Positions 6,392 through 26,999 of a stretch of DNA of 64,000 nucleotides are shown here, one piece after another. The stretch covers positions 310,001-374,000 of the forward strand of contig NZ_CP098747.1 of the NCBI RefSeq assembly GCF_023746535.1, given 5' to 3'. The stretch's first letter is position 1, and each line of letters opens with the position of its first letter. The notes under the pieces were generated by a model. It was not told where the DNA came from. It worked only from the letters and a program-made list of their open reading frames with translations, and ran no database searches. This DNA is from Sneathiella marina (GTDB lineage Bacteria > Pseudomonadota > Alphaproteobacteria > Sneathiellales > Sneathiellaceae). The position numbers and the translations under genes were made by a program.

Positions 6392-9280
6392 ATGGCCCAA
6401 CAACTGGACAACTCTTCATTTCTCTTTGGCTCTAACGCCGGATTCATTGAGGACCTTTACGCTCGCTACTTAGACGACCCAGCTTCTGTTGATGAAAGCT
6501 GGCAACAATATTTCCAATCTCTGGGCGACGACGCCGAAACCGTTTTGGCGGAAAGTCGCGGCGCTCCATGGACACCGTCAAATGGGTTTGATCCGGAAGA
6601 CGAATATGAAATTCTTGGTAACGCCGCCAATCGTGCAACAGAAATCGCAATTGAATCCGGTGCAGAGCAACAAGATGTCCGCGCGGCGGCGATAGATACG
6701 ATACGGGCACTGATGCTGATCCGCTCCTATCGGGTAAGAGGGCATCTAAAAGCCAATCTTGATCCACTGGGATTGGAAATTCCGAAAGAACATCCGGAAC
6801 TCAACCCAACCACTTACGGGTTTGCTGAATCCGATTGGGATCGTAAAATATTTCTCGACAATGTGTTGGGACTGGAAACAGGGACAATTCGGGAAATCCT
6901 GGCGATCGTCAAACGAACTTACTGTTCGACAATCGGCGTTGAATTTATGCATATTCAGGAACCGGATCAGAAAGCCTGGATACAGGAGCGCATTGAAGGG
7001 CGGCACAAGGAAGTATCTTTTACTGCTGAAGGCAAGATTGCGATTTTGCGGAAACTGATTGAAACCGAAGGGTTTGAGCATTTCCTCAACGTCAAATACA
7101 CGGGAACCAAGAGGTTTGGCCTAGATGGTGGTGAATCTCTGGTCCCGGCAATGGAAGGTATTATCAAGCGCGGCGGTCAGTTGGGTGTACAGGAAATCAT
7201 CCTTGGCATGCCCCATCGTGGTCGCCTGAACGTACTTACGAATGTGATGGCCAAACCATTCCGTGCGGTTTTTTCTGAATTTCAGGGAAGCCCGGCAAAT
7301 CCTGAGGACGTCGAAGGCTCGGGCGATGTAAAGTATCATCTGGGCACGTCATCAGATCGTGAGTTCGATGGCAACAATGTTCATTTATCATTGACAGCAA
7401 ACCCGTCGCATTTGGAAGCCGTCAATCCGGTTGTTTTAGGTAAAGCCCGGGCAAAGCAAGCTCAGATCGGCGAAGATGTGGGCGGTCAGGTTATGCCTTT
7501 GCTACTTCATGGTGACGCCGCTTTTGCCGGACAGGGAATTGTAGCCGAGTGTTTTGGCCTTTCAGAGTTGAAAGGGTATCGCACGTCAGGAACCATTCAT
7601 TTTGTTGTTAATAACCAGATCGGTTTTACAACCAGCCCAAAATATTCTCGCTCCAGCCCCTATCCTTCTGACGTCGGTAAAATGGTACAGGCACCAATTT
7701 TCCATGTAAACGGAGATGATCCTGAGGCGGTTTGCCATGTGGCGAAAATTGCGACAGAGTTTCGTCAGCTTTTCCAGATTGACGTTGTTATTGATATGTT
7801 CTGTTATCGTCGACATGGTCATAACGAAGGTGACGAACCCGCCTTTACACAACCGCTTATGTACCGGACGATTGCGCAGCATCCGACGACCATGCAAATT
7901 TATGCGAAGAAGCTAATTGCAGAAGGCGTTCTTTCTGAAAAAGACGTTGAAACAATTATTTCTGAGTTTAAGGATTATCTGGAGAAGCAATTTGAAACGG
8001 CAACAAGCTTCAAGCCGAACAAAGCAGATTGGTTTGAAGGTCGCTGGCAGGGGTTTGAAAGAGCTGACGAGGGTGCACGCCGCGGTACGACAGCTATTGA
8101 TATCGATGAGCTAAGGGCCATTGGTAACAAACTGACAGAAGTCCCTGCGGATCACAATGTTCACCGCACCTTGCAAAGAGTATTGAAGTCGAAGAAAAAG
8201 ATGATCGATACAGGTGCCAATATTGACTGGGCGACTGCGGAAGCCTTGGCATTTGGATCTCTTCTAAAGGAAAATGTACCGGTTCGGTTATCGGGCCAGG
8301 ACTGTGGCCGCGGAACGTTCTCACAGCGCCATTCGGTGATTGTCGATCAGGTTACGGAGGGACGGTATATCCCGCTGAATAACTTGGAAGGCGAGCAAGC
8401 TCACTATGAGGTTATCGACAGCTTGCTTTCGGAAGCTGCGGTACTTGGATATGAATATGGCTATACACTGGCTGAACCTAATGCTCTGGTCTTGTGGGAA
8501 GCGCAGTTTGGTGATTTCGCCAATGGTGCGCAGGTCATCATCGATCAGTTTATTTCCAGCGGCGAGTCCAAATGGCTGCGTATGAGTGGATTGGTAATGC
8601 TTCTTCCGCATGGCTATGAGGGGCAGGGACCGGAACATTCATCGGCTCGCCTGGAAAGATACCTGCAGATGTCAGCGGAAGACAATTGGCAGGTTATCAA
8701 TTGCACCACACCAGCAAACTATTTTCACGCATTGCGCCGTCAAATACATCGTAAATTCAGAAAACCGCTTGTGGTAATGACTCCGAAATCATTGTTGCGG
8801 CATAAGCAGGCAGTATCGACGTTTGACGAAATGGGGCCGGGCTCCGCATTTCATCGTGTTTTATATGATAATGAAAAGCTGTGTGCTGATAAAGATGTCA
8901 AGCGCATCGTGCTTTGCTCTGGCAAAGTCTATTATGATTTGCATGCCCGCCGTGAGGAGCTCGGAGATAAAGAAACCTACTTCCTGAGACTGGAGCAGCT
9001 CTATCCTTTTCCATATCAGGCGCTGGAAGCGGAAATGAAAAACTTCAAGCATGTGGAAGAAGTTGTATGGTGTCAGGAAGAGCCCAAAAACATGGGGGCT
9101 TGGGCATTTGCCGAGCCGCATCTGGAGCAGGTTTTTGAAAATCTGAAAATGAAAAAGGTTACCCGTCCACGATATGCAGGTCGTAAGGCGTCGGCCTCGA
9201 CCGCAACGGGTCTTTTAAAGAAACATAATCTACAGCAAAAAGCATTGGTCGATGACGCATTAGGCGTTGCACCAGAATAG
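6392..9280 (+). CDS. sucA: 2-oxoglutarate dehydrogenase E1 component
   Basis: The 962-residue thiamine-diphosphate enzyme decarboxylates 2-oxoglutarate and passes the succinyl group to the lipoyl arm of SucB. The N-terminus (NSSFLFGSNAGFIEDLYARY) is the E2-interacting segment seen in OdhA/SucA. GMPHRGRLNVLTNVM near residue 270, HGDAAFAGQG and the RRHGHNEGDEP region mark the ThDP-binding domain, and the C-terminal third is the transketolase-like pyrimidine-binding and C-terminal domains. The length is usual for alphaproteobacterial SucA. The ATG has only a short GGA upstream next to a stable hairpin, which could limit initiation. Confidence 0.98.
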   Translation: MAQQLDNSSFLFGSNAGFIEDLYARYLDDPASVDESWQQYFQSLGDDAETVLAESRGAPWTPSNGFDPEDEYEILGNAANRATEIAIESGAEQQDVRAAAIDTIRALMLIRSYRVRGHLKANLDPLGLEIPKEHPELNPTTYGFAESDWDRKIFLDNVLGLETGTIREILAIVKRTYCSTIGVEFMHIQEPDQKAWIQERIEGRHKEVSFTAEGKIAILRKLIETEGFEHFLNVKYTGTKRFGLDGGESLVPAMEGIIKRGGQLGVQEIILGMPHRGRLNVLTNVMAKPFRAVFSEFQGSPANPEDVEGSGDVKYHLGTSSDREFDGNNVHLSLTANPSHLEAVNPVVLGKARAKQAQIGEDVGGQVMPLLLHGDAAFAGQGIVAECFGLSELKGYRTSGTIHFVVNNQIGFTTSPKYSRSSPYPSDVGKMVQAPIFHVNGDDPEAVCHVAKIATEFRQLFQIDVVIDMFCYRRHGHNEGDEPAFTQPLMYRTIAQHPTTMQIYAKKLIAEGVLSEKDVETIISEFKDYLEKQFETATSFKPNKADWFEGRWQGFERADEGARRGTTAIDIDELRAIGNKLTEVPADHNVHRTLQRVLKSKKKMIDTGANIDWATAEALAFGSLLKENVPVRLSGQDCGRGTFSQRHSVIVDQVTEGRYIPLNNLEGEQAHYEVIDSLLSEAAVLGYEYGYTLAEPNALVLWEAQFGDFANGAQVIIDQFISSGESKWLRMSGLVMLLPHGYEGQGPEHSSARLERYLQMSAEDNWQVINCTTPANYFHALRRQIHRKFRKPLVVMTPKSLLRHKQAVSTFDEMGPGSAFHRVLYDNEKLCADKDVKRIVLCSGKVYYDLHARREELGDKETYFLRLEQLYPFPYQALEAEMKNFKHVEEVVWCQEEPKNMGAWAFAEPHLEQVFENLKMKKVTRPRYAGRKASASTATGLLKKHNLQQKALVDDALGVAPE

Positions 9281-23647: not shown

Positions 23648-23671
23648 GTTCTTTTAAAATGTCGATTAATT

Positions 23672-23699
23672 AGAGGCTTTTTTAAGCCTCTTTTTTTTT
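23672..23699 (+). terminator. intrinsic terminator of the atp operon
   Basis: Perfect stem AGAGGCTT (23672-23679) / AAGCCTCT (23684-23691) with a TTTT loop, followed by a run of nine T. It ends atpHAGDC. Confidence 0.94.
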
Positions 23700-23880
23700 C
23701 GAACTATCCGGCCCTATCGCGCTGCCATGAAGAAATATGGTCTAATATCCACATGAATCATTGTTAATACATGAATAGTACGAGGTAACAGTCTGTCAAA
23801 TTAAGGGTTTATTTACCTATAATAGTTACTCTGTCCGCTAGTTTCGAAAGAATTTTGGGATAATTTTCTCTAGCGAGTAT

Positions 23881-25335
23881 GTGAGTAAAGACGGGATGAC
23901 AATCTCCAAGCGGATCTCCGAACATTTTGGTTTCGGTGATTTTACAATCAACCTTTTCTCGTTACGGTTTACGGACAGTGATGAAGAGAGGCGGCATAAC
24001 AGGGCAGAGTTGAAGAAATCTCTCCCCGTCATGCGGCTTGCGTTGGGTGCCGCGCTTCCCCTCTATATGGCTTTCGCAATTCTAGATTATTACTCTGTTC
24101 CTGAAGTCTTTGCAGAAGCAATGTTTTTACGGTTCGGCATTGCTGCGCCGATCCTGCTCATTTCCATTCTTCTGACATTTAGCTCTGTCGCCAGTCGATA
24201 TGCGCAGGCAATTTTTGCATTCTGCATGTTTACATGTGGAGCCATTATTCTCTTGCTGATCGCTTTGGCGGACCCTGTTGGCGTATCTAGTTACTATGCT
24301 GGTATTGTCTTCGTCATGATCTATTGTTGCTGTATTCCGCCGGTTCGGTTTCTCTGGGCGACTATGAATATCGTTATTTTCATGATCGCTTACCAGTTTA
24401 TCGTAATTTACTATAATCCGTTACGGGGTGAAGTTCTGATACAGACAGAGTTTTTCTTCGTTTGCTCTGCCCTGTTGAGTATGTTTGCAAGTTACATTCA
24501 GGAGTTTGCTCGCCGCAGGGATTTCGTCAACATGCGGCTTTTGGAAGCTGAAAGATCTCGTTCTGTCGAGCTCGCAGACAAGGCGCAAGCGGCAAACCAC
24601 GCAAAATCTGAGTTTTTGGCAATTATGTCTCACGAACTCCGGACACCACTAAATGCCATTATTGGGTTCTCAGAAATTCTTGAAAAGGAAATGTTCGGGC
24701 CACTTGGAAAAGATCAATATAAGGAATATTCAAAAGACATCAATGTAAGCGGGCAGCATCTTCTCAGTATCATCAATGACATATTGGATTTGTCGAAAGC
24801 TGAAGCAGGTAAGTTGGTTTTACAAGAAAATCCGGTGTCAATTGTTGAAATCGTAAATTCCACTCTTCGCATTGTCAGAGATCATGCGGCTGAGCGTGGT
24901 GTGCGTTTGGCTTTTGATGTGCCGCCGCATGACAACATGCTGACAGGCGATCCGCGGCTTCTTGCACAGGTATTTCTGAACCTGTTCTCCAATGCTGTAA
25001 AATTTACACATAAGGGCGGGTCCGTAACGATCAGTTTTGAGAATGAGGAGGATGGCGGTCTTTGGATTTATATCCAAGACACCGGAATTGGCATTGATCC
25101 GAAGGATCTGGATAAAGTATTTGCTCCGTTTGTTCAAATTGAAAGCGCCATGGCACGCAACTATGAAGGAACCGGGTTGGGGCTTCCACTGTCAAAAAAT
25201 ATTATGGAGCTTCATAGCGGGTCTATTACTTTGGCCAGCAGCCTTGGTGAAGGTACAACAGCAATTGTCAAGTTCCCCAAGGAACGTGTGATTGCTCCCA
25301 GTCTCCAAGACCCACAATTACAGGCGCGTGGATAA
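23881..25335 (+). CDS. membrane sensor histidine kinase (HisKA/HATPase_c), orphan
   Basis: The 484-residue kinase has about six transmembrane helices at residues 48-205 preceded by a cytoplasmic segment (FSLRFTDSDEERRHNRAELKKS) like the integral-membrane sensor found in some bacterial adenylate cyclases. A linker coiled coil follows (215-245), then the dimerisation domain with the phospho-accepting His251 in SHELRTPLNAI, the N-box NLFSNAVKF (about 367-375), G1 DTGIG (400) and G2 GTGLGLPLS (430). There is no receiver domain and no response regulator gene next to it. The kinase domain is of the PleC/DivJ/HWE-unrelated HisKA type common in alphaproteobacteria. It begins at GTG 23881; ATG 23896 is an alternative. 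Its stop faces that of the PilZ-methyltransferase gene 17 bases away. Confidence 0.9.
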   Translation: MSKDGMTISKRISEHFGFGDFTINLFSLRFTDSDEERRHNRAELKKSLPVMRLALGAALPLYMAFAILDYYSVPEVFAEAMFLRFGIAAPILLISILLTFSSVASRYAQAIFAFCMFTCGAIILLLIALADPVGVSSYYAGIVFVMIYCCCIPPVRFLWATMNIVIFMIAYQFIVIYYNPLRGEVLIQTEFFFVCSALLSMFASYIQEFARRRDFVNMRLLEAERSRSVELADKAQAANHAKSEFLAIMSHELRTPLNAIIGFSEILEKEMFGPLGKDQYKEYSKDINVSGQHLLSIINDILDLSKAEAGKLVLQENPVSIVEIVNSTLRIVRDHAAERGVRLAFDVPPHDNMLTGDPRLLAQVFLNLFSNAVKFTHKGGSVTISFENEEDGGLWIYIQDTGIGIDPKDLDKVFAPFVQIESAMARNYEGTGLGLPLSKNIMELHSGSITLASSLGEGTTAIVKFPKERVIAPSLQDPQLQARG

Positions 25336-25352
25336 GCCTTTAGTATTCTTCG

Positions 25353-26813
25353 CTACTCAGGCTTAGTGACCAGTAGAAGATGGCAATGTCCAGTAACATC
25401 TGCGAGGACTTCGCGTTTTGCTTCAGGCTCTATTTTATCTGCCATCGCAAGCATTTCGTCTTCGGTGCGATATTCCAATTTCCAATCTGTTACATAATCC
25501 AACAGCCATTCAAGACTGTCTTCTGAATGTCGCATATTGCCGACAATTATGGTGCCGCCTGGCTTGAGTTTTCCATATAGACCGGTGACAAACCGGTTGG
25601 CCTGTCGTGCAGAAAGATAATCTACCAGCCCTACGGAATACACCAGATCTTGTAACCCCAGCTTTCCAACAAGTTTTCCTGCAGAAAGGAATTGCACGAA
25701 CGACGTATGCAGACAATTAACTTTCGCCTGTCCATTCAGTCGAGCGACTTCTGGGAATGAATTTTCGTAGGCATATGTCAGTGCTTCGTGATCCTGATCA
25801 ATCAGCGTAAAACTCACAGGGAGCGGTAGGACGTCGGCTTTTAAAAAGTTTCTCACTTCCTGAGCTGGGCCACAGCCGAGACTTGCAACATCAAAGGAAC
25901 TTTTGCCTCTTTCCGCCGCAAGAGCGGTCAATCTGGCAATGGCTTGACGTACCATCGTCATCCGAAATGAAATAACCTCTCCGGACGAGTAGCCGAGTTT
26001 ATGACAGAATTTCTCATATGCAGTCTCGCCGAGAAGCGAAATATTGTAGAAATAGTTCATAACCTGAAAATCACCAGGATAGCCCAGTGGCTTGGTGTAG
26101 GAGCGATTCCAGAGTTTCCCAGCCATTAGCTCAGGCATCAAGGTTGCTTCGGTATATCGTTTGACTGCATTGACAATTTTTGGGTCATGGCGGATCTCGC
26201 ACACGATTTTATTGCCTTGTTTATAAAATTCTTTCCAACGCGCAAACGCTATTTTCTCGCAATCAATTACGGTATCGCGAATTCGTTCATCGCGACGCGG
26301 CATATCGGGGGACAGTTCTGCTTCTATTTCTTCGAGTGTTGTCCGAGCGGATCTTAGTAAAAAGATGGCGTCGCTAATGAGCTGTTTATATTCGCCAGGA
26401 ACGAGCTCTGTCGTATCCTGCATACCGGCTTGGATGGATTTTTGAAGAGAGATTTCGTCGTGACGCCTCAGGATTTTCTTGATATCAAGATAACCCTTCG
26501 TGAATTCCAGTGCTACGATCTGCTGGCTTTTCAACGGCTCAATGCGTCGGATCGTACCACGGCCCGCAAATATTTCGGTGGAATCCAACTTCAAGCTAAG
26601 AGGAACGTCTTTATTCAATTCATCTAGCCAAGACGTACTTTGTGGGCTTACAAAACTGATGCCACTCATACTAACATCTAGCAAATCGAATGATTTATCT
26701 TGGACGTCTACTACAGGTGAGATGCTGCTCATAAGAGTTTTTGCATCAAAGCGCTCGGCTCGGTAGAAAATACGTCTACCTTCCCCACCTGTAAGCTCTT
26801 CGTAATGTTTCAT
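25353..26813 (-). CDS. PilZ domain - class I SAM-dependent methyltransferase fusion protein
   Basis: The 486-residue protein joins two modules. Residues about 10-115 form a PilZ domain with both c-di-GMP-binding signatures intact: RRIFYR (Arg14, Arg18) and DVSMSG (Asp46, Ser48, Gly51). Residues about 135-486 form a methyltransferase: a helical part with RWKEFYKQGNK and KPLGYPGDFQVMNYFY (241-256), then SAM motif I in VASLGCGPAQEV (309-320) and the acidic residue Asp340 after beta-2 (TLIDQDHEAL). The helical part and the GYPGD motif resemble proteins often annotated as extracellular-factor 3-hydroxypalmitate methyl ester biosynthesis proteins (PhcB-like); that link is from memory and the substrate is unproven. 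The obvious inference is a methyltransferase controlled by c-di-GMP. Confidence 0.82.
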   Translation of the reverse strand: MKHYEELTGGEGRRIFYRAERFDAKTLMSSISPVVDVQDKSFDLLDVSMSGISFVSPQSTSWLDELNKDVPLSLKLDSTEIFAGRGTIRRIEPLKSQQIVALEFTKGYLDIKKILRRHDEISLQKSIQAGMQDTTELVPGEYKQLISDAIFLLRSARTTLEEIEAELSPDMPRRDERIRDTVIDCEKIAFARWKEFYKQGNKIVCEIRHDPKIVNAVKRYTEATLMPELMAGKLWNRSYTKPLGYPGDFQVMNYFYNISLLGETAYEKFCHKLGYSSGEVISFRMTMVRQAIARLTALAAERGKSSFDVASLGCGPAQEVRNFLKADVLPLPVSFTLIDQDHEALTYAYENSFPEVARLNGQAKVNCLHTSFVQFLSAGKLVGKLGLQDLVYSVGLVDYLSARQANRFVTGLYGKLKPGGTIIVGNMRHSEDSLEWLLDYVTDWKLEYRTEDEMLAMADKIEPEAKREVLADVTGHCHLLLVTKPE

Positions 26814-26842: not shown

Positions 26843-26984
26843 AAATTAATACACTAAAAATAGCACATCTCATTTACCGCTCAGAAGATTTCGAATATTT
26901 TTTCAAAATAACGAAAAACCAACCAAGTGGTCCCCAATAGTCAAATTGTTAACCATATTTATTAACTATAAAATTTAGTTACCG

Positions 26985-26999
26985 TTAACAATTGGTTAA
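26985..26999. promoter_or_regulatory. CtrA-box-like element
   Basis: TTAA (26985-26988), seven bases CAATTGG, TTAA (26996-26999) matches the TTAA-N7-TTAA consensus of the alphaproteobacterial cell-cycle/motility regulator CtrA. It lies about 170 bases upstream of the PilZ-methyltransferase gene. The region is very AT-rich, so a chance match is possible. Confidence 0.4.

Follow-up and report, generated by a model that had tools for sequence, protein, structure and literature searches.

In operons of the Phc type, PhcB is a fatty-acid methyl-ester synthase and PhcS a receptor kinase. In Ralstonia, the ester made by the Phc system is a secreted signal (PMC11960443, PMC6989110). An R22C change of PhcB has been reported for strain GMI1000; Arg22 is reported to affect signal synthesis and to sit outside the known domains (PMC6989110). 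Another described system is FmtB of Bordetella. The B. parapertussis protein BPP1064 (PDB 3OCJ), an FmtB orthologue, contains palmitate in its cavity, and overproduction of B. pertussis FmtB leads to more methyl-ester fatty acids, an effect that is lost when Asp147/Tyr148 are changed. Deletion of fmtB caused no significant loss of esters, and no activity of FmtB was seen in vitro. The gene is monocistronic and adjoins the RegAB two-component genes; no receptor is assigned to it (PMC5426589). For the alphaproteobacterial cell cycle, the CtrA consensus is quoted as TTAAN6GTTAAC, and DivK and PleD are the predicted targets of PdhS kinases (PMC7003649). PilZ domains are treated in PMC10576176 and PMC10667535. 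The literature that we searched treats Phc-type signalling in Ralstonia and its close relatives. Within its open-access part we found neither a link between PilZ and PhcB nor an alphaproteobacterial Phc system in print.

Here we analyzed a window of 64,000 nucleotides (64 kb) from the 4.07-Mb genome of Sneathiella marina, in which a gene for a PilZ domain fused to a methyltransferase (MT) faces a histidine kinase gene tail to tail (Table 1). For this locus and its relatives, we computed domains, motifs and fold matches, the pairing and co-occurrence of the two genes, the kinship of MT and sensor with those of Phc type, CtrA-box matches and, in some regions, exporter neighbours. The fused PilZ enzyme probably makes a fatty-acid methyl-ester signal, and its place next to the gene of a membrane receptor kinase, kept in many relatives, suggests that a system of chemical communication has been overlooked.

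Table 1. Features of the PilZ–MT locus and its convergent partner (positions within the window)
Feature	Position	Strand	Basis or remark
PilZ–methyltransferase (MT) fusion gene	25353..26813	-	ORF, ATG start, 486 aa
PilZ domain, ~residues 13-116	26466..26777	-	PF07238; predicted model matches PilZ structures, several with c-di-GMP
c-di-GMP motif 1, R14xxxR18	26760..26774	-	Direct reading of the sequence
c-di-GMP motif 2, D46xS48xxG51	26661..26678	-	Direct reading and alignments
Helical, probably substrate-binding region, ~residues 134-300	25914..26414	-	Aligned to 3OCJ from residue 134
GYPGD, residues 244-248	26070-26084	-	Within the helical region; invariant in 18 aligned alpha MT domains
SAM-binding Rossmann fold	25356..25901	-	Model and motifs
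Motif I GCGPAQE, residues 313-319	25857-25877	-	Within the Rossmann fold
Acidic D339	25797-25799	-	Within the Rossmann fold
Partner histidine kinase, 484 aa	23881..25335	+	Pfam HisKA and HATPase_c; 6 predicted TM segments
Six-TM sensor region, ~residues 45-215	24013..24525	+	TM peaks; profile comparison
Tail-to-tail gap, 17 bp	25336..25352	.	ORF coordinates
CtrA box TTAACCAATTGTTAAC	26984..26999	-	Begins 186 bp ahead of the start codon of PilZ–MT

Domains and fold of the fusion protein

A reading of the DNA sequence alone (below, the sequence-only reading) had described this gene as a PilZ domain fused to a class I SAM-dependent methyltransferase. The frame was confirmed with all the motifs named there at their residues, and the predicted structure contains both a PilZ barrel within residues 1-130 and a SAM fold of the class I methyltransferase type in the C-terminal part. 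The PilZ family PF07238 matched the domain alone at 23.5 bits and in the genome scan at 23.7 bits, above the cut-off of 22.5, and the whole protein at 20.4 bits, below it. The model of residues 1-130 has a mean pLDDT of 82.9, with residues 1-17, including the first Arg of RxxxR, below 50. Compared with solved PilZ domains, its best VIA row has Z 10.3 (rmsd 4.3, 106 residues). The first 23 VIA rows are PilZ proteins, some by their titles and others by our assignment, except 4q63, which is titled uncharacterised.

For the MT part, Pfam returned general methyltransferase families only, all below cut-off. Neither NCBIfam nor the PDB sequences, each searched with the single fusion protein, gave a match at E up to 1. 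Searched with the MT profile, PDB sequences yielded seven weak matches, to other methyltransferases; 3OCJ was not among the matches at E up to 1. In structural searches with the fusion model (mean pLDDT 74.5, with stretches below 50 at residues 232-258, 341-358 and 435-444), 3OCJ came first both in Foldseek (E 3.2e-8) and in VIA, where 251 residues were aligned, beginning at residue 134 (Z 17.2, rmsd 4.0). By VIA's own rule, SgvM (8RPR), an alpha-keto acid methyltransferase, is tied with it at Z 16.5. Because of this tie and the missing sequence match, the link to 3OCJ is one of fold only and is not exclusive. D339, like GYPGD, is invariant across the 18 alpha MT domains aligned. We consider it quite likely that the MT is a fatty-acid ester synthase.

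No second copy of the fusion was found in the genome at E up to 0.001. A 476-aa PilZ frame elsewhere in the genome was considered as a paralogue and dropped; its N-terminal part looks unrelated by eye. Scans for promoter-like and terminator-like sites gave 11 (6.5 expected) and 4 (3.5 expected), respectively.

Conservation of the c-di-GMP motifs

Both c-di-GMP motifs are invariant in 16/16 Sneathiella-type sequences, a set made up of the window and of all 16 relatives fetched but one, L022, whose frame is broken. Outside the window's family, D/NxSxxG is kept in all 26 PilZ N-termini compared, with RxxxR complete in 14 and its first Arg missing in 12 (L039 and L047, whose frames are broken within the PilZ part, were excluded from these rows). 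The first Arg is also missing in L073, which represents another genus of the window's family. Since R14 is replaced in 12/26, c-di-GMP control may hold for Sneathiella and part of the rest only. For Sneathiella itself, motifs and modelled fold make binding of c-di-GMP by the PilZ domain likely.

A PilZ domain without c-di-GMP binding, kept for structure or interaction, seems to us an unlikely alternative, and it does draw on the replaced R14 residues. The beta N-termini described below also lend it something: they have no PilZ match and resemble the alpha N-termini only weakly by profile, and yet Arg22 in this region of PhcB is reported to affect signal synthesis (PMC6989110). Against it stand the complete motifs of the Sneathiella-type sequences, D/NxSxxG in every one of the others and a fold that matches c-di-GMP complexes.

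Distribution of the fusion

How general the two-domain order might be had been left by the sequence-only reading to a genome search. The MT is present in 35 of the 385 Alphaproteobacteria genomes drawn, nearly all with PilZ, and the fusion is therefore no oddity. In the window's order, 23 of 25 genomes match. Among the 30 MT genomes outside the window's family, the N-terminus is PilZ in 28 (23 frames, two broken frames and three more), lacks PilZ in one (G057) and is cut by a contig end in one (G324, L105). A draw from the whole phylum gave 28 matching genomes of 398, the window's own genome counted in. Six non-alpha genomes match the MT strongly (224 to 259 bits), with an N-terminus that differs from the alpha form. 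The named relatives found are mostly Sneathiella.

Among the 49 records returned by the plasmid search, none covered 80% of the query at a single site; three named relatives came from this search. On the Enterobacter ludwigii plasmid NZ_CP134637.1 (L078:5751-8888 (+)), the MT match (28% identity) is part of an annotated type I polyketide synthase; MT relatives may thus also sit inside megasynthases. In Sneathiella glossodoripedis JCM 23214 (L022/L113), the PilZ–MT frame is interrupted past about residue 56 and the kinase is spread over two frames in this assembly, which reflects either sequencing error or real decay.

A convergent histidine kinase as conserved partner

Neither the kinase next door nor the conservation of the pair was part of the sequence-only reading. 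The tail-to-tail arrangement recurs in 48/48 readable rows, which correspond to 47 distinct loci besides the window, as L022 and L113 are apparently the same record. These rows come from 32 of the 35 regions fetched (five of them within the window's family and 30 outside it), from 15 of the 16 named loci, of which L019 stops too early, and from one cyanobacterial plasmid. By tblastn, the sensor lies near the MT in 32 of the 35 regions; in L088, L091 and L102 the contigs end nearby, and the sensor of those genomes is on another contig. The stop-to-stop distance ranges from -45 to 78 bp, except in L089 (1084), L103 (997), L108 (151) and L022/L113 (681). Outside the window's family the pair is still convergent at identities of 32-41% (MT) and 36-48% (kinase), with other neighbours from the window recognised within its family only.

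A profile of the sensor, searched against the same 385 genomes, gave 46 matches. The 35 that reach at least 145 bits are exactly the 35 MT genomes, and none of the 350 genomes without MT does so; this line was set after the gap was seen, and the profile favours MT genomes because it was built mostly from kinases neighbouring MT. The 11 genomes without MT that match at E up to 1e-10 all score at most 86 bits. The 35 MT genomes are related, and several of the loci are near duplicates, so that a Fisher value for the pairing is no fair probability. In G057, the MT without PilZ still faces the kinase. Taken with the conserved pairing, this points to MT–kinase as the core link and to PilZ as a regulatory addition.

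That the pairing is inherited synteny devoid of a functional link appears very improbable. Relatedness of the genomes and near duplication of some loci would fit such a reading. It sits poorly with convergence maintained at the identities given above when the other neighbours are recognised in-family only, and with strong sensor matches in 35/35 MT genomes as against 0/350 others.

The phospho-acceptor of the window kinase is H251 by motif reading. A crude scan gave 6 TM peaks for this kinase and 3 to 6 for 16 other kinases; no Pfam family was found for the sensor at E up to 0.1 across 16 members. For the phospho-acceptor domain of the window kinase, the highest-scoring model is PdhS (108 bits; BarA 95.6, DivJ 94.3), while the whole kinase scores 216 bits with TorS, 215 with LuxQ, 208 with DivJ and 192 with PdhS. 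In five other alpha kinases, the PdhS model leads for this domain in four and DivJ in one, so that PdhS or DivJ is best in 6/6 alpha kinases scanned. No response regulator gene was found beside the pair in the window.

Several loci depart from the simple arrangement. On the plasmid NC_019690.1 of Pseudanabaena sp. PCC 7367 (L076:6076-8306), the convergent MT–kinase pair is accompanied by a receiver, and the annotated MT is without PilZ. The pair adjoins a recombinase and a Tn3 transposase, and acquisition of the module by transfer is possible. In L103, a gene of the cyclopropane-fatty-acid-synthase family (7740-8651 (-)) lies between PilZ–MT and kinase. In L009, a 448-aa gene with FAD_binding_3 (Pfam; 6674-8020 (-)) lies between atpC and the kinase. 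Frames of similar size occupy this position in several other Sneathiella loci, with none at 23648-23880 of the window or in L007.

Relation to Phc-type operons

We compared the alpha proteins with relatives from Betaproteobacteria other than Ralstonia. In hhalign, the alpha MT profile matched six beta MTs at 99.9% (E 1.2e-37, 320 columns), and the alpha sensor matched five beta kinase sensors at 97.2% (E 3.6e-11, 152 columns). The N-termini gave a weak profile match (52%, E 1.4e-4, 43 columns), and Pfam found no PilZ match in the beta ones. At the strong non-alpha loci and on a Paraburkholderia graminis plasmid, the MT is followed by a kinase and then by receivers, which is the phcBSRQ order. 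This order is legible in full in L077, L143 and L146, and in L145 with a small unmatched frame third; L142, L144 and L147, with misread ORFs, are outside the gene-order comparison.

On the P. graminis plasmid the starts of the phcB and phcS counterparts are 1408 bp apart, compared with 1417 bp in GMI1000, as computed from the mutation positions published in PMC6989110; the phcB-to-phcQ distance differs more (3341 versus 3940 bp). Arg at residue 22 is invariant in 7/7 beta N-termini and matches the mutated Arg22 of GMI1000 PhcB. The kinase His is at position 233 in the plasmid kinase and at 230 in PhcS (PMC11960443); residue 161 is Phe in the former and Leu in the latter. Based on gene order, Arg22, phcB–phcS start spacing and the position of the kinase His, we consider the beta operons to be of phcBSRQ type. 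The P. graminis kinase has 6 TM peaks, as does the window kinase, and matches MASE8 at 17.6 bits against a cut-off of 26.2. One beta kinase was scanned for phospho-acceptor type: it matched no model at E 1e-15 and so differs from the alpha PdhS/DivJ type.

The sequence-only reading had proposed a methylated fatty-acid signal under the control of c-di-GMP. This interpretation is partly supported. Its direction fits the findings and gains strength because the MT is kin to the Phc-type MT, 3OCJ is the first structural match and the paired kinase has a Phc-related sensor; the variable R14 speaks against a simple form of it.

CtrA boxes and exporter genes near the pair

Upstream of PilZ–MT is the only exact TTAAN6GTTAAC of the 64-kb window; the promoter of the window kinase has no CtrA match of 9/10. 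As the box was first noticed in the window, counts in other, related families serve as the test. Outside genus-level relatives, a box of at least 9/10 occurs in 14 of 29 MT upstream regions, against 0.68 expected by shuffling, and 7 of them have an exact box, against 0.02. The 29 include L109 (G385, another genus of the window's family). Excluded from the scan as a whole were L108, which lacks PilZ, and two loci with short upstream sequence, L105 (48 bp) and L016 (19 bp). In the Sneathiella set, the corresponding numbers are 17/18 (1.48 expected) and 11/18 (0.05). Background tiles contain a match of at least 9/10 in 20/1267 and an exact one in 3/1267. Other spacings and permuted motifs, tried on MT upstream regions with L105 and L108 excluded, gave 0 to 8 of 29, the 8 coming from a spacing of five bases.

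Kinase genes of relatives can have such boxes too. Outside genus-level relatives, at least 9/10 is reached in 13 of 26 upstream stretches (0.60 expected), with 2 exact (0.07); in the Sneathiella set it is 7/16 (0.75 expected), none of them exact. The reference point for these stretches was the beginning of the sensor match, and some coding sequence falls within them. The genome also encodes a PleD-type protein behind a DivK-like receiver (L174; PleD and DivK are names that we assign presumptively, from the protein sequences) and has nine GGDEF matches over cut-off. That the kinase acts on DivK/PleD is a tentative suggestion.

In 13 of the 35 regions, the MT is closely preceded, at 64 to 791 bp, by an MMPL-family gene (8 on the same strand, 5 divergent), and in three further regions such a gene is about 7 kb away; the assignment was checked by Pfam for four genes. 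In 19/35 regions, including all five of the window's family, none was found near the MT at E 1e-10. The window itself yielded no MMPL gene, and MMPL-family matches occur elsewhere in its genome.

Proposed mechanism and alternatives

On balance, we lean towards lipid-ester signalling by a Phc-like module that c-di-GMP and CtrA would tune, with the fusion as its synthase half. The C-terminal domain would use SAM to methylate the carboxyl of a free, perhaps 3-hydroxy, fatty acid. The convergent kinase would respond to the ester through its six-TM sensor, with altered autophosphorylation at H251; we give moderate credence to the MT product being the ligand of this kinase. The PilZ domain, if it binds c-di-GMP, may adjust the synthase up or down with the level of that nucleotide. 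Through putative CtrA binding, the synthase gene would be expressed under CtrA, as would the kinase gene in about half of the relatives. By phosphotransfer to presumed partners, the kinase may feed the DivK/PleD–CtrA network.

The same genes can be read as a homeostatic circuit that involves no cell-to-cell signalling, in which the MT serves membrane physiology and the kinase senses the membrane or lipid state; we regard this as rather improbable. In its favour, MMPL-type transporters can serve envelope lipids, and the intervening gene of L103 belongs to the cyclopropane-fatty-acid-synthase family. FmtB, too, is encoded by a monocistronic gene beside RegAB and has no receptor assigned to it (PMC5426589). 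What weighs against the circuit is that both proteins are kin to the Phc-type pair, whose ester is a secreted signal in Ralstonia (PMC11960443, PMC6989110).

Still less probable, in our assessment, is that the MT acts on a protein or on another small molecule. Its substrate might then be the kinase itself, and the two neighbours would form an enzyme–substrate pair. General Pfam families below cut-off and the structural tie with SgvM leave room for such a substrate. They are countered by 3OCJ ranking first in both searches, aligned across the helical and SAM parts, by the profile kinship to the MT of Phc-type operons and by the MMPL neighbours in 13/35 regions.

The lipid-ester signalling module might be extended further, to a closed circuit in which a diffusible lipid pheromone is coupled to the cell-cycle machinery of Alphaproteobacteria. 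Expression of the synthase, and in many relatives also of the receptor kinase, would be switched on by CtrA; c-di-GMP, for example from PleD, would act through PilZ to set how active the synthase is; the ester would be exported by an MMPL transporter in some families; and the six-TM kinase with its PdhS-type phospho-acceptor would read it and feed back on DivK/PleD and thereby on CtrA. We consider the complete circuit doubtful.

Comparison with known systems

If this complete circuit is real, it would constitute a quorum system, found in roughly one in ten of the Alphaproteobacteria genomes drawn and not described as such in the literature searched. The alpha pair would extend Phc-type signalling to another class, place a c-di-GMP domain inside the synthase polypeptide and tie this signalling to CtrA. 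It also offers an idea for Ralstonia, as PhcB Arg22 falls in an N-terminal region positioned where the alpha protein has PilZ.

CheR methylates chemoreceptors. In the MapZ–CheR1 system of Pseudomonas aeruginosa (PDB 5XLY, 5Y4R), a PilZ protein is in complex with a methyltransferase and is a structural match to the PilZ part here; MapZ and CheR1 are separate proteins, whereas the locus described here encodes one polypeptide. FmtB shares the fold over the helical and SAM parts and has the acidic residue of the SAM motif (Asp147, D339 here), followed by Tyr where the fusion has Gln. It is 302 or 335 aa long, and no PilZ domain is reported for it, in contrast to the 486-aa fusion with PilZ. With the PdhS/PleC/DivJ kinases, the window kinase shares the phospho-acceptor domain, for which the PdhS model is best; it differs from them by a six-TM sensor related to Phc-type kinases and by the higher whole-protein scores of TorS and LuxQ. 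In its components the locus resembles phcBSRQ: an MT with an N-terminal region accompanies a multi-TM histidine kinase, and MT and sensor are kin to those of beta operons that match the phcBSRQ layout. The arrangement is different, with convergent genes in place of one operon and, in the window, no adjacent response regulator, and the alpha form is distinguished by a recognisable PilZ domain with c-di-GMP motifs, a PdhS/DivJ phospho-acceptor, CtrA-box matches and, in some alpha families, an MMPL neighbour.
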